Source: a virus
Reading direction: 5' to 3' (one strand)
DNA: 33,925 bases
IMG/VR virus record: IMGVR_UViG_3300021962_008753
Coordinates: 1 to 33,925 of that record
Positions 1 to 26,593 of this stretch are shown piece after piece. Each line of letters begins with the position of its first letter. Position 1 is the first letter of the stretch. The position numbers and the translations under genes were made by a program. The notes under the pieces were generated by a model that worked only from the letters and a program-made list of their open reading frames with translations, ran no database searches and was not told the origin of the DNA.

Positions 1-2160
1 AGTAGTTGAACCATCGGTTATCAGAGAACCCAATGTTACATAAGACCCTCTATCAGTTCCAAAATTCGTAGGTGTTCCTTTTGTGGTAAATTCTACCTTT
101 TCAAAACTTAATGCGGTATTATCATAGTTTAAATTGAATTGTGTACCAACCAATTCTTGTTGTAAAGGGTCTACTGAAATTGTTACTATCAGTTTACCAC
201 CAACATTTTCGCCCATTAGGTATGCGTTGATTTGATTGGAAACTGATTGAGTTGATAAACTCATAGTTCTCATTGAGTTGGTTGCGACACTACTTATGGT
301 TTGCTGTGCCGAATGTGATAGATTTACATCTCCTAACCATGTTACATTTAAATTGTACGTGTTATTCAATACTCCACTATTCAAATTAAATGGATACAAA
401 CTTCTAGTTGAATTAAATTGTGTATTCCAATTTGATTTAGTTATAGCATCATATTCAGTTTTACTATATAGTTTCATCAAATAAGTTAATGCTGAATATT
501 GTGTTAATGGTACAACTCCCGTTAAATGTTGTAATAGTTTGTAAGTATCACTTTCGTTAAATACACCATTACCATCAACATCCGCATTCATATATTGAAT
601 ACCATTTGTAAATTCCAATCCACTTTGATTTCCAAATATTCCACCATTTGATAATTCTTTAAACGCCAAATAGACATCTGTTACACTCACAATACTATTG
701 TATAAAGTATTTAATTCAGTTTGATTGTTTGCAATAATATCAATACCGTGTTGTTTGTAATTTCTATTTGATGAAAATGTGAATTCAGCGGTTAGTGCAT
801 AATATGAACCACCATTCCGTATGTTAGATGTAAACGATGAACCCGCAAAATTAAATTGTGTTTGAGTATAAACATATACTTCCGTCCAACCATTCGGGTC
901 ATAACTATTATATGTTACAGGTCCGTTATATAAATCAAATAATTGTAAACTACTTATTTTTGTTGGGTCTGAAAGAATACCATTTACCTCTCTACTATCT
1001 ATACCAATTCTATATCGTTGGTTGTAGGTATCATATTCGTAAATTACACACCATTCTACTTGTCCTGCTGTCGATGATACCTTAATACCATCATTTGATA
1101 TTTTAGCGGTATCCAAATCGTTTGTGATATCTACTTTACCTAAACCGCTCAATGTTCTTGATGTATTAGTTGTTACATTCCATACATTATTTACATAAGT
1201 GTTTGCTTTTGCTGAAAATTTTGTTTCATCTACGTTACCACCGAAATCGATATTGAATTTAGCAGTTAAAACTTCTCCGTTTGAATGTGATACTGAATTG
1301 GTATAAAATTCCGTAAACGTTGCATCATCTGGATTTGACCAAGTCCCATATTCGATTACATATGGGCAACTAAACCCATTTGGTAAATCATTCCATTGAG
1401 AACCACCGCCCCATTTAGTTACTGCGTAATCTTCATTACCACTATTGTTTGGTTCACCACCTGCCCAGTTATTGTATTGACCAACTATATTTCCATTCAG
1501 TTGCCCATTTGCCGTTTTGATTAGAGTTCCTTTTTCAGGTCCCGCATCAATTCTCCACTGCCCCTCAACAACCTCATCGGTTAATGCAAACCAAATGCTA
1601 GTTTGTGGTACATTATTATAAATAAACAAATCTTCATCGGCGGATGTGATTGTTACTAAATATCCTTTTTGTCCTTTGAATGTTGTTGCTTCTGCTGCAG
1701 TTCTTGCACCCGTATAAGTGTTTCCCGTTGATATCGGTCTATAAAAGTGTCCATTTACACCATTATAATAATATCCCGTTGGATTCACAGTTGCTGCTAC
1801 CGATAATAAAACATTTCCTTTTACTGAACCTGTATTTACTTTTAAGGATGCCAATGCCGTATTGATATTAGCCATCGTTCCCGTTACAACTAAACGAGTT
1901 TTATTACCTACTAATGTAAATCCACTTGCGGCAGTTAAACCCGTTGTTGTACTTAGATAGAATGTTGTACCAGATGGTGGATTTACTAAACTGATTGATG
2001 CTAATAAGATTGATGTAGAACCAAATCCATTTAATACAAATCCATTTGCATCTTGTCCATTGGTGGATGGTATAAACGATTTAGAGTCCGGAGCAGATAC
2101 ACTCTGTCCGAACCCTAAAAATGATATAAATAGAAATAATGTAACTAATAAGTGTTTCAT
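1..2160 (-). CDS. Secreted protein with C-type-lectin, dockerin-like and cohesin-like modules (3' end off the window)
   Basis: Read directly by translating the reverse strand: 720 codons open from the ATG at 2160 to the left edge, no stop, so the C-terminus is missing. Residues 1-19 form a Sec-type leader (MKH, then a hydrophobic core, ending GFGQ) of the kind common in Bacteroidota. Residues ~132-272 look like a C-type lectin fold: W190-F-A-L, GEPNN around 235-239, WND at 256-258 and CPYVIEYG near the end. Residues ~489-548 look dockerin-like, with a calcium-loop motif DVDGNGVFNESD (527-538) followed by a helix. Residues ~645-720 look cohesin-like (V-G-T-Q-F-N-L-N-Y-D). It lies 1 nt after a paralogue with similar C-terminal modules. 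Known families: CLECT domains in phages often bind receptors or glycans. Inference: an exported or virion adhesin; the exact location is unknown. Confidence 0.8.
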   Translation of the reverse strand, partial: MKHLLVTLFLFISFLGFGQSVSAPDSKSFIPSTNGQDANGFVLNGFGSTSILLASISLVNPPSGTTFYLSTTTGLTAASGFTLVGNKTRLVVTGTMANINTALASLKVNTGSVKGNVLLSVAATVNPTGYYYNGVNGHFYRPISTGNTYTGARTAAEATTFKGQKGYLVTITSADEDLFIYNNVPQTSIWFALTDEVVEGQWRIDAGPEKGTLIKTANGQLNGNIVGQYNNWAGGEPNNSGNEDYAVTKWGGGSQWNDLPNGFSCPYVIEYGTWSNPDDATFTEFYTNSVSHSNGEVLTAKFNIDFGGNVDETKFSAKANTYVNNVWNVTTNTSRTLSGLGKVDITNDLDTAKISNDGIKVSSTAGQVEWCVIYEYDTYNQRYRIGIDSREVNGILSDPTKISSLQLFDLYNGPVTYNSYDPNGWTEVYVYTQTQFNFAGSSFTSNIRNGGSYYALTAEFTFSSNRNYKQHGIDIIANNQTELNTLYNSIVSVTDVYLAFKELSNGGIFGNQSGLEFTNGIQYMNADVDGNGVFNESDTYKLLQHLTGVVPLTQYSALTYLMKLYSKTEYDAITKSNWNTQFNSTRSLYPFNLNSGVLNNTYNLNVTWLGDVNLSHSAQQTISSVATNSMRTMSLSTQSVSNQINAYLMGENVGGKLIVTISVDPLQQELVGTQFNLNYDNTALSFEKVEFTTKGTPTNFGTDRGSYVTLGSLITDGSTT

Positions 2161-2161
2161 A

Positions 2162-3814
2162 TTATTCAACTATTAAATCAATTTTACTTCCTACCGCATC
2201 AACTGCATCTGAAAGAACAAAGTAGAATAATCCTGCTGTATTAGTTAAAGTTGTTTTTGGTGTAAATACCAATTTATATGGAGTTCCCACCTTAATTCTC
2301 GCAGTTTTCAATTGGTCAATAGAACCAAATGTTAATCTACCATCTTTGTGAGTTGAAAAGTTAGTAATTGTAGAGCCAGAATCAAATATTATATTATCTA
2401 ATGTTAATTTAGATTCATCGTAGTTCATTATCACTTGTAATCCAGCTAAACCTTCTTTTGTTAAAGTTGTAGTTAATACAACCTTACCGGCTTCCAATGT
2501 AGATGTAATACCCAATGTAGCTTTTTCAGCTGCCAATGTTTGATACGCCATTGGAGCAGTACTCATAGATTTAATTGAGCTAGTAGCTTTATCGCTTACT
2601 GAATTCGTATATTGTCCCGCAGTTATTTTAGTTGCAATCACCGATGGGTCTGATGAGTGTGACCAATTCAAATCACCACCCCACGCAAAAACCGCATAAA
2701 CTTCTTTAATTGGGGAATCAATCAATACTCTATTTTTTACAACACCATCTAACCAACTCTGATTTAATAGACCACTATACCATCTTACAGATGTTGAAGT
2801 GTTGGTTGGAATCATTGCATTTGAATCCATATTCTGTCCCATTACATGTGCAAATAGTGCATATGAATCTCCTTCACCGAATGCGTTCATATTGTTAGTT
2901 ACCTTACCAACTTTCTTTTCTAATGTAGGTAAAGTAAAAAAGTTTGCAGTTCCACTAATATCGGTTTGTGAGTGACCTAAAAATGCTTTATAAGCATCAG
3001 ATACAGTTACAATGTTGTTCATCCAACTTTTTTGGAATGCTGCTCCTACGAATACACCAACCGAATCACCAACTTTAACTTGCGTTGTGAAAAGAGCTTC
3101 ACCACTTGCATCTAATGGTAATTGTGCAATTGGAGCTTGTGCCCAATCTATTTCACCACTACCATTTGATTTCAATCTCATCAATTGAACCGAATGGTCA
3201 GTAATAGTGTACCCTTGTGGATATAAAACTTTTACTTTGAATTGAGATGTGTTACCCGTTACACCTGTTATAGATGATGAACCGCCACCATAAATAGTTC
3301 CAACATTAGTACCATCTACATCAGTACCGGTTGCCAAATCTATTTTGAAAATGTTGTTGTAAGCGTTTTGGTCTTTTAAGATATATTTTTGAGTAGCAAT
3401 TACACCACTTATAGATGCATCTGCTCTTTGAACCGTTAATTGTCCAACATTCCAATCTGCATTTGATGCATAATTCCACGGAGTTAATCCGTATTGAACA
3501 TTCAAATCATTATCACTTGCACCACCGTTGAAAGTAAACTTATAGTTACTCCAACCTGTGTAGAATGTTTGTGCAGATGAACCTTGATTAAACGTAGTAG
3601 ATACATACGCTAATGCTTTATTGTTGTACTGATATCTAAACCAAAGATAACGAGGATTCTTAATTACCTGTCCTTTTGTTAGATTGTACTTTACAGTAAT
3701 TGTATCACCTACCTTTAAACCCGTTGCAGGTGTTAGCGATTGACTGATTGTCAGTTGTCCAAATGATGAAAGGGATATCATTAATACCCCTAAAAACAAT
3801 AAGATTTTTTTCAT
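2162..3814 (-). CDS. Secreted protein with cohesin-like and dockerin-like modules, paralogue of the downstream gene
   Basis: 550 residues from the ATG at 3814. I chose this start because it opens a clean leader (MKKILLFLGV to SSFGQ); an in-frame codon five residues earlier would overlap the upstream gene and spoil the leader. Residues ~25-130 resemble a cohesin-like beta sandwich (LKVGDTITVKYNL, then RYLWFRYQYN). A region around 275-340 (NNIVTVSDAYKAF, then NNMNAFGEGDSYALFAHVMG) resembles a dockerin pair whose calcium loop has lost most acidic residues. The C-terminus (~430-550; GLAGLQVIMNYDESKLTLDN) is a second cohesin-like module. The pieces WGGDLNWSHS and VSDAY have clear counterparts (WLGDVNLSHS, VTDVY) in the next gene, so the two are paralogues. 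Function unknown; probably exported or a virion surface protein. Confidence 0.75.
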   Translation of the reverse strand: MKKILLFLGVLMISLSSFGQLTISQSLTPATGLKVGDTITVKYNLTKGQVIKNPRYLWFRYQYNNKALAYVSTTFNQGSSAQTFYTGWSNYKFTFNGGASDNDLNVQYGLTPWNYASNADWNVGQLTVQRADASISGVIATQKYILKDQNAYNNIFKIDLATGTDVDGTNVGTIYGGGSSSITGVTGNTSQFKVKVLYPQGYTITDHSVQLMRLKSNGSGEIDWAQAPIAQLPLDASGEALFTTQVKVGDSVGVFVGAAFQKSWMNNIVTVSDAYKAFLGHSQTDISGTANFFTLPTLEKKVGKVTNNMNAFGEGDSYALFAHVMGQNMDSNAMIPTNTSTSVRWYSGLLNQSWLDGVVKNRVLIDSPIKEVYAVFAWGGDLNWSHSSDPSVIATKITAGQYTNSVSDKATSSIKSMSTAPMAYQTLAAEKATLGITSTLEAGKVVLTTTLTKEGLAGLQVIMNYDESKLTLDNIIFDSGSTITNFSTHKDGRLTFGSIDQLKTARIKVGTPYKLVFTPKTTLTNTAGLFYFVLSDAVDAVGSKIDLIVE

Positions 3815-3815
3815 T

Positions 3816-4478
3816 TTATTTTCCCTCAAAGATTTTGGTTATAAGTTTTTCCGAAGTTTTCTTTAAGGCATTGCTTAAAGATGTTTGGTTGAACTTACCA
3901 CCTTCATCTACTATGAGAGTCGACATTGAGATTTCAGATGAACTTTCTTCAACCATAACCTCTTTTGCCTTTTTACCATCTTTATAAAGGATACCCTTCA
4001 TTCTGATGACAACTTCTTCTTCGTTTTTGTGAAATACGGAGATATTTTGTTTAGTTGTCAAAACGTCTAAATAAACGATTTGAACTTGCAATTTATTTTG
4101 CGCCGATGGAGTTAAATCTAACCCTCTTTCTTGCAAATATTCTTCTAATATATTTTTTACACCGAATTCTAATTGTCTGTTTCCAGCCAATTTACCAATT
4201 TTAACATTATTTGTTACAGATTCAACCCACACATGCTCATCTGCTTCGTACATGATGTTTCCTGGGTTATTTTTAAACGTACCATCGAATTTCCAATTGA
4301 ATTCATTTACCGCTCTTTGAATTATAGCATCTTTACCTAAAGCGGTCAGAGCTATAAACGTTAATTGGGTTATTAACGCTAACGTTATAAAAGTTGCAAC
4401 TAAGTAGACAAAGCCCATTGCGAGCTTTTCTTTTAACTTCTCTAAGAAGTTTACTGAATAAACATTTTGTGTGACCAT
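3816..4478 (-). CDS. Membrane-anchored protein of unknown function
   Basis: 220 residues. A basic, short N-terminus is followed by one strong hydrophobic segment (about residues 20-47), so a single-pass inner-membrane anchor or uncleaved signal is likely. The rest is soluble, with alternating hydrophobic strands (LQVQIVYLDV, VVIRMKGILY) and a C-terminal amphipathic helix (SLSNALKKTSEKLI). The strand/helix layout loosely recalls YajG-like envelope lipoproteins, but there is no lipobox and I would not assign the family. It is the first gene after a promoter-like site and is followed with 1-nt spacing by the two secreted cohesin/dockerin-like proteins, so a role in their export, assembly or anchoring is a reasonable inference only. 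Confidence 0.7.
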   Translation of the reverse strand: MVTQNVYSVNFLEKLKEKLAMGFVYLVATFITLALITQLTFIALTALGKDAIIQRAVNEFNWKFDGTFKNNPGNIMYEADEHVWVESVTNNVKIGKLAGNRQLEFGVKNILEEYLQERGLDLTPSAQNKLQVQIVYLDVLTTKQNISVFHKNEEEVVIRMKGILYKDGKKAKEVMVEESSSEISMSTLIVDEGGKFNQTSLSNALKKTSEKLITKIFEGK

Positions 4479-21305: not shown

Positions 21306-21927
21306 ATTCTTCTCTCTTAAAATTTATAGAGTAGTTATCTATATTATTCACATTATATGGTGAATATGGTTTCCAATTTTTACCAGATTGAATGAATTTT
21401 ATTTCTGCATTAAATCTGTTTTTCTTAATATTTTTCAAATCCATACTTTTAGCATATTGACCGGTTGTCCACCAAAAATTGCCTGAATAAAAGTATCCAT
21501 AGTAAAGTATTCCATATGTATTAAAATCGCTTCTTTCAAATAATTTAAATACATCATTTACTTTTTCTATATTAAAATAATTCATAACTCGTCTCCAAGT
21601 TATGATATTCTGATATTTTGAATCATTTTGTTTGGATGCACCTTTCGTATGAAGATACAAAATATAATCGGAATCTCCAAATTTTTCTTTATCAGTTTCT
21701 AATAAATCTAATGTGACAAATTCGTTACCTTTAGCTCTAATATCTCTTACTAAATTTTTATCCAATTTATTCAATACATTTGAAATGGATTTATTTTCAT
21801 CGGCAATTGATATTCCTATATTCAATTTATATGGAAAATCAAAGTGCGATTTAATCAAATTTAGTTGCTCATCGATTATAGTTTCTACACCATCTATCGC
21901 ATATATGTGATAATATATGTGAACCAT
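21295..21927 (-). CDS. Glycosyltransferase-like protein
   Basis: 210 residues. MVHIYYHIYAIDGVETIIDEQL, DYILYLHTKGAS and GYFYSGNFWWTTGQY fit a family of short polysaccharide-synthesis proteins in which the LHTKG and SGNFWW segments recur. No clear DxD. Likely acts on the same glycan as its neighbours. Catalytic role less certain than the GT2 and GT-B genes. Confidence 0.7.
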   Translation of the reverse strand: MVHIYYHIYAIDGVETIIDEQLNLIKSHFDFPYKLNIGISIADENKSISNVLNKLDKNLVRDIRAKGNEFVTLDLLETDKEKFGDSDYILYLHTKGASKQNDSKYQNIITWRRVMNYFNIEKVNDVFKLFERSDFNTYGILYYGYFYSGNFWWTTGQYAKSMDLKNIKKNRFNAEIKFIQSGKNWKPYSPYNVNNIDNYSINFKREEYAK

Positions 21928-22553
21928 TATAACGTATCGTAGTAGTTATTTTGCTTTTCTTGTCTTTCTATTGTTTTTGGATGTTTAATGCAATAGATTT
22001 CTTCCAATGGGAAATTCGTATAGTTTTCAAATCCACCAATTCTTTCGTGTACCTTACCACTCCATCCTATTTGTTCTGGTTTATTTTTATAAATACGAGT
22101 CTGAACATCTGGAAAGTTTACCCACCCCTTTTCATTCACATTCCAACCCCACTTTTGAATATGAGCGTGAGTCAATCCTTCTACTGTATTTATACGAGGT
22201 ACTAAGATAAGGTCTTTATCCATATTTGCTTCCAATAATGCTTCAATATTCACAATCAAATCAGGTGTTAAGTACTCATCCGCATCTAATTGAAATATCC
22301 ACTCTCCTTTACATTGTGAGTTCAATAGATTTTTCCATTGTGCAAAATCATTATCAAATTCGGATTCTATAAGTGTAATGTGGTCTGCATTTGCTTGTAA
22401 TTCCAAATACTCCACCAATTCCGTAGGAGCTTTTGGCGTATCTAATAAAACTACTATTTCAGAATTTTCTTCTTTATAATTTAATAACTGATTAACCAAA
22501 CGAATGGTTTCTTCGACTTCATTACAAGCCGTTATTGCATAACTTAATTTCAT
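21927..22553 (-). CDS. Glycosyltransferase family 2 protein
   Basis: 208 residues. LSYAITACNEVEETIRLVNQLL at the N-terminus, then WIFQLDADEYLTPDLIVNI with the metal-binding DAD and KVHERIGGF near the end, the layout of GT2 enzymes of the WaaE/SunS-like type that build lipopolysaccharide core or glycopeptides. Stop and start share one base with the upstream and downstream genes. Confidence 0.9.
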   Translation of the reverse strand: MKLSYAITACNEVEETIRLVNQLLNYKEENSEIVVLLDTPKAPTELVEYLELQANADHITLIESEFDNDFAQWKNLLNSQCKGEWIFQLDADEYLTPDLIVNIEALLEANMDKDLILVPRINTVEGLTHAHIQKWGWNVNEKGWVNFPDVQTRIYKNKPEQIGWSGKVHERIGGFENYTNFPLEEIYCIKHPKTIERQEKQNNYYDTL

Positions 22554-22565
22554 TTATATATTCTT

Positions 22566-22688
22566 TTAATTGGTATTTACTTTATTTAATTCATCTTTAA
22601 CCTTATCCCATGCGGCTGGAGTTAAATTCCAATGATGGGAAGCTTCTACAAATCCTTTCAACCAAATAACAAATTCTTTGGGTGTCAT
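22566..22688 (-). CDS. 40-residue protein
   Basis: ATG at 22688, TAA at 22566-22568, translated by hand. Reads MTPKEFVIWLKGFVEASHHW and ends DELNKVNTN, a compact amphipathic helical protein. Its ATG overlaps the TGA of the SGNH gene (ATGA). I recognise similar short WLKGFVEA proteins as recurring in phages, without known function; the conserved tryptophans suggest a protein-binding mini-domain. Confidence 0.8.
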   Translation of the reverse strand: MTPKEFVIWLKGFVEASHHWNLTPAAWDKVKDELNKVNTN

Positions 22689-23464
22689 AACAAATTATTT
22701 TTAATAATATATTCTTTAATTTTTTCAGCAACCACAATATTACCATATTTACTTATGTGATTATCCGGCACTAATCCATTTGTTTCCGATTCAATTTGTA
22801 ATTTTTCTTTTATACAAAAGTGTTTCAACGATAATCCATCAAATAATAAGTAATTTTCAGTCGAAGATTGTATGAATTCCAAATGCTTCTCATCATCTCC
22901 AAAATCCCAACCACTCCATATTATTTTTGAATTTTTTGATTTAGCAAAAGTATCAAACAATTTTATATTTCTATTCAGCGTATCCATTTCCGTTTGCAAA
23001 TCGAATACATATTCTAAATAGCTTGTAAAGTGATTATATAATGGTCTATATGATTCTCTATTATCGAATGGATTTCCTGAAAACTCTAGCATATTTAAAT
23101 TATGCTTTTGTTTATCACCCTCATAGTACCAATATCTACGGTGTGGTAATGATAGTATTATAAAATAAATTTCATTTGAATTTTCAACAATTTCTTTAAA
23201 TAAGTTTTCTAAAATATAATCATTTGAAGCTTGGGATTTGGCTAAATTGATTATATCTACATTTAGAGAATTTGCTAATATCGATGTAAATCTATTATTT
23301 TCTTTGTATGAATCTAAAAATTTAAGTATTTCAACTCGTTCTTCAGCAGTAGAATCTTTTGGCCAATATGTTAACGGAGTTTGTGGTGATTCTATAAAGT
23401 TATAATAATCTATATTATTTAATCCACCACCTTCAGTAAAACTACATCCAAAGAATTTTATCAT
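22685..23464 (-). CDS. SGNH-hydrolase-like protein (GCSFTEG type)
   Basis: 259 residues. Block I FGCSFTEGGG with Ser8; block III-type NLAKSQASNDY; C-terminal DNHISKYGN with a D-x-H pair. Same opening GCSFTEG as the protein at 27728-28585, so the two are related. Likely removes or transfers an acyl group on a glycan. Overlaps the 40-residue gene by 4 nt. Confidence 0.78.
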   Translation of the reverse strand: MIKFFGCSFTEGGGLNNIDYYNFIESPQTPLTYWPKDSTAEERVEILKFLDSYKENNRFTSILANSLNVDIINLAKSQASNDYILENLFKEIVENSNEIYFIILSLPHRRYWYYEGDKQKHNLNMLEFSGNPFDNRESYRPLYNHFTSYLEYVFDLQTEMDTLNRNIKLFDTFAKSKNSKIIWSGWDFGDDEKHLEFIQSSTENYLLFDGLSLKHFCIKEKLQIESETNGLVPDNHISKYGNIVVAEKIKEYIIKNNLL

Positions 23465-23470
23465 AATTTA

Positions 23471-23944
23471 TTATATGTTTCCTTTCTGTGATTTTTTATC
23501 AATTCCAATTACATTCATACTTTTAGGAGTTAATTCATTAACATCCATATTAAGTTCTATAACTTTACCAAATCCGCTTATCTTATACGTTCGATATGAT
23601 TCATTCGTAATTATTGGAATTTTAGCTACAACACCCGAATAGAACTTCTTTGCTCCACCTTTCATTTCCAATTGTTCCGTATCTTCATTTACAAACTTAC
23701 CAAAAAACTTTTTAATCAGATTTGGATTTACATTCGATACTTTTACGGCATGGACTATATCTTTTTGCTTAGACACAAATAATGTATAAATTATTGGAGC
23801 AGTAGTTTCGGTAAATTTACCTTTAGTACCATCCACATATTCGTACTCTTTTATAAGATAGAATTTAGCTCTAACCATTCTATCGGCTGAAACGTATTTT
23901 CTTTCATCTATAAATTTACGATATAGTGGATTAAAATTACCCAT
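23471..23944 (-). CDS. Hypothetical protein, 157 aa
   Basis: Not recognised with confidence. Soluble, beta-rich: MVRAKFYLIKEYEYVDGTKG, PIIYTLFVSKQKDIVHAVKVS, VVAKIPIITNESYRTYKISGFGKVIELN. Lys-rich with a C-terminal KKSQKGNI. Sits between an SGNH protein and a glycosyltransferase, sharing one base with the latter. Could be a phage-wide structural or regulatory protein that is only by position in the glycan operon. Confidence 0.65.
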   Translation of the reverse strand: MGNFNPLYRKFIDERKYVSADRMVRAKFYLIKEYEYVDGTKGKFTETTAPIIYTLFVSKQKDIVHAVKVSNVNPNLIKKFFGKFVNEDTEQLEMKGGAKKFYSGVVAKIPIITNESYRTYKISGFGKVIELNMDVNELTPKSMNVIGIDKKSQKGNI

Positions 23945-25212
23945 TATTTATTAAGAGGTTTTAATTTTGGCAATTGTAATTGCTGGAACTTTGGTTGTAT
24001 TTTTGTATAAATACCATATTGATTTAAAATATCATCAAACAGTAAGGTCATTTTTTCTAAACCAAAATTTTGCTTATTATACTTTGCCAATTTAGATGAT
24101 TCGGATTTATATTTATCATAATTCTTATAAACATCTTTGATTATCGGTAAAGATTTTGAAACATTTACATTAAACCATTGCGATTCTTTCAATAAGAATT
24201 GGTCAGCAGCTGATTCGTGTACTGGTTTCAAATCTCCTTCTAATAATACAGCTCCTTCTTTTAAGAAATCCAAATGACCACTCCAACCACTAACAATAAC
24301 AGGTTTACCAGTCAAACTGAATTCTAACAATGGTCTACCAAACCCCTCACCTTTTGTAAAATTCAACATTGCTTTTACTTTAGGATGTTCATATAAACCA
24401 TTCATTTGAGATGGAGATAAATCACCATGTAGTAAATAAATTGGAACTTTACCATAATCAGAACCCAATACTGATTTTATTTTTTTAATTGTGGCTTCTC
24501 TATCCATTACACTAAATCCAGCTGATGATGTTTTTAGAACTAATGCGGGTTTAATCTTTTCATTTTTAAACGCCATAGCAAATGTTTTAATCATCATACC
24601 CACATTCTTTCTATCTTCGCCCAAATCGCCTCTTAACCAATGTCCTACAAATAGGAATGCGAAATCTTCTTTAATTGAATCTAATTCAGTTACATATGAT
24701 ATCACATCAGTTCCGAAATCAAATTCATCGAATCCTTCAAAAAGAATCTCAACGGGCTTTTGAATTTTATGTTGTGCAAGTAGTTTGCCAGTTTGCTTAT
24801 CTTGTTCATTATAAACAGTTTTAACTAAACTATCTTTTGAATGTTGCGATGGAACAATAATTAAATCCATTCTATTACAACCGTGAATCCAATCTAATGG
24901 AGAAACAGTTGTTTCTATTGCCGCTGTAATACCAATATTATAAAATCCCAATGGTTGAAACTCATTTGGAACAGTAACCTGAATATAGATATCTGGCTTT
25001 TGTTGAATACCCGGAATGATATTATCTACCACCCACTTATGGAATGGTTTATCGTAATTCAATGCATCCATTGGGGTATTGCCCCAACGAGTGCTAATTA
25101 CTTTTATGTCGAATTTATCTAATTTATATAATGAATGCAACAAATCTCTTGCGTGGTCACCATATCCACTTCTTGTTGCTACGGGTGCTTGAAATACTAA
25201 CGTTGGTTTCAT
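23944..25212 (-). CDS. Glycosyltransferase, GT4-like (GT-B fold)
   Basis: 422 residues, the usual GT4 length. N-terminal half starts TLVFQAPVATRSGYGDHARDLL, with a G-x-G-x2 turn; donor half has FLFVGHWLRGD, ALVLKTSSAG, MLNFTKGEGFGRPLLEFSLTGKPVI, i.e. the E-x7-E motif in GEGFGRPLLEF. Transfers a sugar from a nucleotide donor with retention in the classic family. Adjacent to a second GT4-like gene with 1-nt spacing. Confidence 0.92.
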   Translation of the reverse strand: MKPTLVFQAPVATRSGYGDHARDLLHSLYKLDKFDIKVISTRWGNTPMDALNYDKPFHKWVVDNIIPGIQQKPDIYIQVTVPNEFQPLGFYNIGITAAIETTVSPLDWIHGCNRMDLIIVPSQHSKDSLVKTVYNEQDKQTGKLLAQHKIQKPVEILFEGFDEFDFGTDVISYVTELDSIKEDFAFLFVGHWLRGDLGEDRKNVGMMIKTFAMAFKNEKIKPALVLKTSSAGFSVMDREATIKKIKSVLGSDYGKVPIYLLHGDLSPSQMNGLYEHPKVKAMLNFTKGEGFGRPLLEFSLTGKPVIVSGWSGHLDFLKEGAVLLEGDLKPVHESAADQFLLKESQWFNVNVSKSLPIIKDVYKNYDKYKSESSKLAKYNKQNFGLEKMTLLFDDILNQYGIYTKIQPKFQQLQLPKLKPLNK

Positions 25213-25213
25213 A

Positions 25214-26593
25214 TTATAACTCTATTAACTTAAATTTTTGTTTTGGTTTCCAATTTGCAAATGCACCTTCCATACCATCTACTAATGATTGACACATTGC
25301 TTCTAAACTCAATTTACCTTCTCCTAAGAAATGATTTCTACCTTTTAAACCTGCAGCTTTTCTTTCTTCTCTACCCATTTTGTAAAAATCCATAATCAAA
25401 GGTGCTACATCTTCAAAATCAATTCTATCATCAAAAATATATGGAGTAGGTACTGAACCTGTTGTTGAACGAACTGGCCAAATCGGTTTAACCCAATCTC
25501 CCCAAACTACTTTGTTTCTTTTGTATCTATCATGCAATGAACCAATCTCAACATAATCTTCTGCCGTTAATAACTTACCACTTCCTCTTTCCCTAAATCC
25601 ACATTGGTCTTGTAATCCACCTGTCACAGTTACAATGATAGGAGTTCCTGCCATTACCGATTCAGCCGTTGCCAATCCAAAGCCTTCATTGGATGCTACA
25701 TTGATTGTTACATCTGCTAAATTATAAAGATAATTTAATTCTTGCTCTGTGTATTTATTTGGAGCAAATATTATATTACTTTCCGGCATACAATGGTCAA
25801 TAAATGTTGGTAAATCCGTACCATGCTCTTGTACAGGTTCAGTATGCATTAACATACATACTCTATCTCTCTTATCTTCGGGCAATGCTTCTCTAAATTT
25901 ATCAAAAGCCAACATAGCATCCATAGGCTGTTTTCTACGAATATTTCTATTATTCCAATAAAGAACAAATTCATATTCTTTATCTCCAAAAATACTTTTC
26001 TTAAAATCTTCGGGAACATCAATTGGTTTATATAAATCCGAATTGATACCATGTGGTACATAACTTACTTGCCAATCTTCCGGCTTAGCCCAGTACTTTT
26101 CTCTATCCCAACTCCAAACTCTCTTAGTAATACCATAGGTTTGTTTTGAAATAGTTCCAATCCAATCGCAACTTTCGTAATAATCTCTATTGTATTTTGG
26201 GTCTGGTAAATCATCCCAAATATGATAAAAGAAGAGAGGTACTGATTGGCGAATTTCATGCTCAATCTCATACAACCAAATCCAATATCTCGGGTCTGTA
26301 AAGTGTAAAATTGCATCAGGCTTTTCTCGCATCAACAATTGCCTAATGATATCAGGATTTCCATACCCATCGGATGGATATATCTTTACCTCCGCATCAG
26401 CAACGCCAGTTTGTTCCCTAACGCTTTGATTTAAATCTAAAATCTTCCCTGCTTCGGGATGTTTAATTGCTGCACCTAATTGAACCCAATCGTATTTATC
26501 AACTGTTCCCAATACTAATTGTTTGGATACGTTGGCAATACCACTAGTCATTCTAAGGTCATCCGAAAGTAACAGAATCTTCTTCTTTGTCAT
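25214..26593 (-). CDS. Glycosyltransferase, GT4-like (GT-B fold)
   Basis: 459 residues. N-terminal half KKILLLSDDLRMTSGIANVSKQL; donor half FVLYWNNRNIRRKQPMDAM, ITFAPNKYTEQELN-type stretch, VTINVASNEGFGLATAESVMAGTPII (E-x7-E motif, EGFGLATAE). The first nine-gene-island member on the upstream side. The gap to the previous gene is 16 nt, so no own promoter is apparent. Confidence 0.92.
   Translation of the reverse strand: MTKKKILLLSDDLRMTSGIANVSKQLVLGTVDKYDWVQLGAAIKHPEAGKILDLNQSVREQTGVADAEVKIYPSDGYGNPDIIRQLLMREKPDAILHFTDPRYWIWLYEIEHEIRQSVPLFFYHIWDDLPDPKYNRDYYESCDWIGTISKQTYGITKRVWSWDREKYWAKPEDWQVSYVPHGINSDLYKPIDVPEDFKKSIFGDKEYEFVLYWNNRNIRRKQPMDAMLAFDKFREALPEDKRDRVCMLMHTEPVQEHGTDLPTFIDHCMPESNIIFAPNKYTEQELNYLYNLADVTINVASNEGFGLATAESVMAGTPIIVTVTGGLQDQCGFRERGSGKLLTAEDYVEIGSLHDRYKRNKVVWGDWVKPIWPVRSTTGSVPTPYIFDDRIDFEDVAPLIMDFYKMGREERKAAGLKGRNHFLGEGKLSLEAMCQSLVDGMEGAFANWKPKQKFKLIEL

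Follow-up and report, generated by a model that had tools for sequence, protein, structure and literature searches.

Cryophage encodes cargo proteins labelled for the type IX secretion system (T9SS), for which a role in competition or superinfection exclusion has been suggested (Bellas et al. 2020, PMC7468147), and such phage-encoded T9SS cargo was termed a unique occurrence (PMC7468147). Pelagimyophages carry curli pore genes, for which 'sibling capture' has been proposed (PMC7029224, PMC9004378). Here we describe two adjacent genes, P0001 and P0002, at one end of a 33,925-nucleotide stretch of viral DNA (IMG/VR virus record IMGVR_UViG_3300021962_008753, positions 1 to 33,925; the window), the products of which combine export leaders with cohesin, dockerin-like and lectin modules. 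Large viruses of Flavobacterium-type bacteria share a conserved set of genes for exported proteins that bind sugars and consist of cohesin and dockerin, the interlocking modules of bacterial cellulosomes; cells infected by these viruses are therefore probably covered by a lectin scaffold.

The locus resembles several known systems, each in part. As in Cryophage, phage proteins of the related gene set in the isolated Flavobacterium phage vB_FspM_immuto_2-6A (immuto) appear to be exported via the T9SS of the host; by contrast, the Cryophage cargo is variable and consists of enzymes and a PA14 protein, and its description includes neither a scaffold of cohesins and dockerins nor an operon that is conserved. 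Like the pelagimyophages, the locus has phage-borne genes for putative export across the outer membrane, with adhesion as the suggested purpose, but homology to CsgG, CsgE or CsgF was not detected in the cassette proteins. Its likeness to the cellulosome lies in the cohesin fold, the dockerin calcium loop and a constant scaffold with exchangeable dockerin-bearing modules. Unlike the cellulosome, it is viral, has lectins in place of cellulases, often carries both modules on one chain and lacks the calcium loop in the first dockerin repeat, and binding between its modules is predicted.

An exported protein pair conserved in viral contigs

The window is a 33.9-kb viral fragment with genes for a B-family DNA polymerase and a T4-type clamp loader. 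P0001 and P0002 are adjacent minus-strand open reading frames (ORFs) at its left end (1–3814). Full-length homologues of P0002, which is cut by the window edge, have 757–772 residues.

2162..3814, minus strand: P0001, exported cohesin/dockerin-type protein, 550 residues, complete
1..2160, minus strand: P0002, exported protein with lectin, dockerin and cohesin modules; its first 720 residues, cut off at base 1
3758..3814, minus strand: P0001 signal peptide, residues 1–19, predicted cleavage before Q20 (Q20 invariant, 70/70)
2107..2160, minus strand: P0002 signal peptide, residues 1–18, predicted cleavage before Q19 (Q19 invariant, 67/67)

Both leaders have a hydrophobic h-region. In our homologue alignments (70 P0001 and 67 P0002 sequences), the leader-plus-glutamine pattern was present in 67 of the 70 and 66 of the 67, compared with 692 of 4288 ORFs (about 16%) across the loci. 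Together with the invariant glutamine at the cleavage point, this family-wide pattern confirms the exported leaders that a preliminary description of this DNA, made from the sequence alone, had claimed.

Searches of viral contigs of up to 288 kb returned at least 79 distinct loci for P0001 and at least 80 for P0002, and the two genes were adjacent in 150 of the 154 loci that have both (some loci being views of one contig). The gene order is fixed: an upstream membrane protein is followed by P0001, P0002, a 113-residue lipoprotein, a 122-residue lipoprotein, a transmembrane protein, a 238-residue exported protein and an outer-membrane-like protein, with an endolysin gene sometimes inserted between the 122-residue lipoprotein and the transmembrane protein. 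For P0001, the bacterial genomes searched yielded no credible relative, and sequenced phage isolates no match by sequence.

Lectin, cohesin and dockerin-like modules

The same sequence sets were used for AlphaFold2 modelling, which gave a mean predicted local distance difference test score (pLDDT) of 84.6 for P0002 (67 homologues) and 86.8 for P0001 (70 homologues). The modules of the two proteins are as follows.

1333..1782, minus strand: P0002 C-type lectin domain, residues 127–276 (Pfam PF00059 at or above cut-off; structure match to mincle)
1447..1455, minus strand: EPN calcium/sugar-site motif of the lectin, residues 236–238 (invariant in 67 homologues)
1387..1395, minus strand: WND calcium-site motif of the lectin, residues 256–258 (invariant in 67 homologues)
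517..705, minus strand: P0002 dockerin-like module, residues 486–548 (weak Pfam dockerin match; hhalign match to P0001)
547..582, minus strand: P0002 dockerin calcium loop DVDGNGVFNESD, residues 527–538
310..333, minus strand: GDVNLSHS block of P0002, common to P0001 (equals the GDVNGTG end of immuto gp014)
1..240, minus strand: P0002 C-terminal cohesin domain, cut by the window edge (Pfam cohesin in relatives; hhalign match to immuto gp015)
3248..3757, minus strand: P0001 N-terminal cohesin fold, residues 20–189 (AlphaFold2 pLDDT mostly 80–94; structure match; weak Pfam cohesin in relatives)
3044..3247, minus strand: P0001 putative immunoglobulin (Ig)-like domain of the carboxypeptidase-regulatory/transthyretin type, residues 190–257 (AlphaFold2 strands; weak transthyretin/MG4 matches of immuto-type counterparts)
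2825..3043, minus strand: P0001 degenerate dockerin-like helices, residues 258–330, calcium loop lost (AlphaFold2 helices; hhalign match to the P0002 dockerin)
2165..2545, minus strand: P0001 C-terminal cohesin-like domain, residues 424–550 (hhalign to the P0002 C-terminal domain, E 7.7e-19, and to the immuto gp015 cohesin, E 0.002)

The sugar-binding domain of P0002 is certainly a C-type lectin. Beyond the Pfam match and the invariant motifs, residues 127–275 (full-length homologue numbering) superimposed on mincle with Z 16.3 and a root-mean-square deviation (rmsd) of 2.1 over 126 residues, in agreement with the CLECT motifs read in the preliminary description. For residues 19–189 of P0001, cohesins filled all the top places of the structure search; superposition on the PDB entry 1g1k had Z 13.5 and an rmsd of 2.3 over 133 residues. 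By sequence, the P0001 domains fell below the curated Pfam cohesin cut-off (PF00963), which the cohesin proteins of immuto-type phages exceeded. The C-terminal domain of P0002 exceeded this cut-off in three of four related whole genomes, with the incomplete copy of the window below it, and aligned by profile with the immuto gp015 cohesin (E 1.9e-6, score 40.8 versus a shuffled maximum of 20.6). The cohesin name given at first sight thus holds by structure for the N-terminal domain of P0001 and is supported by the Pfam matches in related genomes for the C-terminal domain of P0002. The C-terminal domains of both proteins were assigned from sequence profiles because each fold search was dominated by a single domain.

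These C-terminal halves are homologous to each other: unrelated pairs gave E values of 0.3–0.8 in the hhalign comparison listed above. Three paired blocks are strongly conserved (P0001/P0002): WGGDLNWSHS/WLGDVNLSHS, VSDAYKAF/VTDVYLAF and NYDESKL/NYDNTAL. Both the suspected paralogy and the shared WxGDxNxSHS, VxDxYxAF and NYDxxxL elements on which the eye had fallen were therefore real features of the pair.

The calcium loop predicted at residues 527–538 was found there in P0002, and its ligand positions 1, 3, 5, 9 and 12 are D or N in the 67 homologues, save single exceptions at two positions. The dockerin region of P0001 aligned with that of P0002 (hhalign E 6.9e-10). Measured against the two calcium-loop/helix repeats of Dockerin type I (PF00404), P0002 retains a single intact loop, its other helix being loopless, and P0001 has lost both loops. 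The proposal that each protein holds both a cohesin and a dockerin half is therefore supported for P0002; in P0001 the cohesin fold and the cohesin-like domain are supported and the dockerin is degenerate. For the dockerin name itself, the conserved P0002 loop and clearer matches in relatives argue in favour, and the sub-threshold scores throughout and the lost P0001 loop argue against.

The phage lectin is related to host surface proteins

Residues 21–291 of P0002 are homologous to large Flavobacteriaceae surface proteins, which were detected in 52 of 199 genomes (E <= 1e-10) at up to 50% identity. A type B sorting domain of the T9SS closes each of the seven complete host proteins that were examined; the phage lectin is therefore kin to T9SS-exported host surface proteins. 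These share the N-terminal domain and the lectin with P0002, but are mostly 800–3000 residues long and close with the type B sorting domain, in place of which P0002 has a dockerin and a cohesin. The same N-terminal domain and lectin are found in one flavobacterial surface protein (L225:7419-13364) that is at least 1982 residues long. Separately, glycosyltransferase-like genes lie at 21927–26593 of the window, in the same region as the lectin, and a link between a phage-made glycan and the lectin is possible.

An isolated phage carries the same gene set with a T9SS sorting domain

Immuto, isolated on Flavobacterium LMO8, has the same gene set at 10.5–16.4 kb, and was linked to P0001 and P0002 through the P0002 lectin, gene order and structure. 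Its modules are spread over three proteins instead of two: gp013 is a lectin with a dockerin, gp014 a cohesin-type N-terminal domain with Ig and dockerin domains, and gp015 a cohesin. Transmembrane, 238-residue (52% identical), outer-membrane-like and upstream-type (gp019) proteins continue the set. In gp015 the cohesin (5.9e-9) precedes a type A sorting domain of the T9SS (9.3e-12). Both matches exceed the curated cut-offs, and the sorting domain is missing from P0001 and P0002. The depositors gave these products no names beyond 'lectin' and 'cohesin domain', and the literature searched assigns them no function.

In contigs L183, L180 and L223, a P0001-like chain of cohesin-type N-terminal domain, Ig (a step read by eye), dockerin, GDANGTG-type block and cohesin ends in a T9SS sorting domain. 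Immuto gp014 and gp015 therefore correspond to the two halves of this chain, the break falling at the shared GDxNxT/S block. When viral models were searched by structure with P0001, the matches included a phage protein annotated as 'Secretion system C-terminal sorting domain' (E 1.5e-20); the next matches, of 363 and 243 residues, have the lengths of gp014 and gp015 and are presumably these proteins.

Across immuto-type contigs, gp014 and gp015 are mostly 65–80% identical to those of immuto, whereas the binding module of the dockerin-bearing protein varies: EPN lectin, lectin with an inserted LamG, GEVED, and others without EPN. One such contig has two dockerin-bearing binding proteins. This architecture suggests the logic of a cellulosome scaffold, in which a constant cohesin anchor would receive exchangeable dockerin-tagged payloads. 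The LamG/concanavalin insertion interrupts the C-type lectin domain itself in the protein with the dockerin (L183:11819-13513, L180:11220-12968). Directly before the immuto cassette is a nuclease gene (L158:9935-10513; Endonuclease_NS, 1.1e-25) with an apparent export leader, suggesting that further phage proteins are exported.

A candidate anchor and the remaining operon genes

In three of four related genomes the 122-residue lipoprotein is the sole T9SS-sorting-like match, and in the fourth there is one other; the match is weak (E about 0.005). Profile alignment with the gp015 sorting domain gave E 7e-5 (score 28.8 versus a shuffled maximum of 17.1). After the lipobox the protein reads C-x-K followed by D/E, with K in 34 of 45 sequences; the published optimal surface-export signal is C-X-K-(D/E)2-X (PMC5080379). 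The protein may thus anchor or export the scaffold.

The gene next to P0001 in the window belongs to the same operon.

3816..4478, minus strand: upstream membrane/envelope protein, conserved, with an N-terminal membrane segment and a weak Lipoprotein_16 match (counterpart immuto gp019)

It has an FNQ...KK motif in common with the 238-residue operon protein (hhalign E 2.4e-4, 31 columns). Both proteins had looked CsgG-like by eye; Pfam, a PDB sequence search and hhalign found nothing, and this curli reading was dropped. The 238-residue, upstream and outer-membrane proteins gave no match to CsgG, CsgE or CsgF, the hhalign templates being single E. coli sequences. A short, conserved protein that has a single membrane segment and a long, polar tail (L005:15564-15872, L158:13426-13737) could, together with the low-complexity outer-membrane-like protein, bridge the envelope.

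Discussion

With modest confidence, we favour the view that P0001 and P0002, encoded by the phage and exported by the host, form a lectin scaffold of cohesin and dockerin modules on infected bacteroidotal cells. Both proteins would pass through Sec, lose their leaders and arrive outside the infected cell, a presumed location in the window clade. There P0002 would present its calcium-dependent EPN-type lectin, for which the motif predicts sugars of the mannose/GlcNAc/fucose type, joined to P0001 through predicted binding between cohesin and dockerin modules. In the immuto-type systems, the cohesin protein would be T9SS cargo held at the cell surface, where it would be loaded with interchangeable binding modules that bear dockerins. 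For the window clade, the anchor may be found among the two lipoproteins that follow P0002, one of them with the T9SS-sorting-like domain and surface-export signal. The likely gain to the phage would be an altered stickiness of the infected cell or its remains, by which rival phages may be kept off, sister cells held close or receptors on debris masked. Present data do not separate these three possible benefits, the exclusion of superinfecting phages, the capture of cells and the masking of debris.

Several findings weigh against this scaffold at the cell surface. The dockerin region of P0001 lacks the calcium loop, and the Pfam dockerin profile never exceeded its cut-off, the best score being 19.3 bits (in a relative) versus 22.9. 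The P0001/P0002 family has a Sec leader without the C-terminal sorting domain of T9SS cargo, so its route across the outer membrane is putative and the proteins could stay in the periplasm. Moreover, because the window is a fragment that ends inside P0002, the downstream lipoproteins are known from relatives only. A dockerin-family label for the pair would be unwarranted because its scores lie below the profile cut-off and the two loops are not present, as would a T9SS-cargo label because the sorting domain is absent. The two are best named cohesin-domain and C-type-lectin proteins that probably work like a cohesin/dockerin scaffold. The export and surface role envisaged in the preliminary description is supported, and is strengthened by relatives that are T9SS cargo; a self-assembled chain or surface layer, a block on superinfection and cell adhesion, which it also raised, are possible roles.

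One alternative is a periplasmic or outer-membrane lysis aid, in which the operon and the neighbouring endolysin and spanin-like genes would break the outer membrane while the cohesin, dockerin and lectin modules attach, on the inner side, to glycans of the envelope or to peptidoglycan. An endolysin and an Rz-like gene do lie nearby in the window, endolysin and transmembrane genes are found inside or beside the operon in many contigs, and the window clade lacks an outer-membrane sorting domain. We nevertheless consider this unlikely: the strong T9SS sorting domains of immuto-type cohesin proteins direct them outside, the lectin module of P0002 is kin to host surface proteins, and the immuto endolysin lies about 6 kb beyond the cassette. 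Still less probable is that the proteins are receptor-binding fibres or decorations of the virion, with leaders left uncleaved or with assembly onto virions at lysis. Lectin-fold domains are established on phage tail fibres, and some dockerin-like loops, though very weak, are present in other parts of these genomes, one of them in an 843-residue immuto open frame. A search for virion partners with cohesins elsewhere in the genome, however, found none, these weak loops aside, and cohesin matches were confined to this cassette across nine phage genomes. The Sec-exported virion fibre is further disfavoured because of the invariant leader and cleavage-point glutamine, an operon that encodes exported proteins and lipoproteins and that in immuto lies far from the virion genes (terminase, capsid, portal and protease lie at 119 kb and beyond) and relatives that bear T9SS sorting domains. 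We found no virion proteomics for immuto in the literature searched. Finally, C-type lectin folds are the usual targets of diversity-generating retroelements in Bacteroidetes phages, in which hypermutation would vary binding; with no reverse transcriptase in the window or in eight related phage genomes (records that may be incomplete) and with EPN and WND invariant, this reading is largely refuted and highly improbable.

Beyond the lectin scaffold that we favour, we tentatively propose, at rather lower confidence, that large Flavobacterium-type phages build a cellulosome-like surface scaffold, in which a constant cohesin anchor, placed by the host T9SS or a lipoprotein route, would receive exchangeable dockerin-tagged lectins that determine what the dying cell adheres to or conceals. 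The gene set would add to Cryophage a second case of T9SS cargo encoded by phages, a much wider one, spanning many contigs and with a recognizable assembly logic. If true, viruses would use cohesin/dockerin modules beyond the degradation of plant polymers, and both phage-driven surface remodelling and 'sibling capture' would become testable in an isolated pair, immuto and Flavobacterium LMO8.

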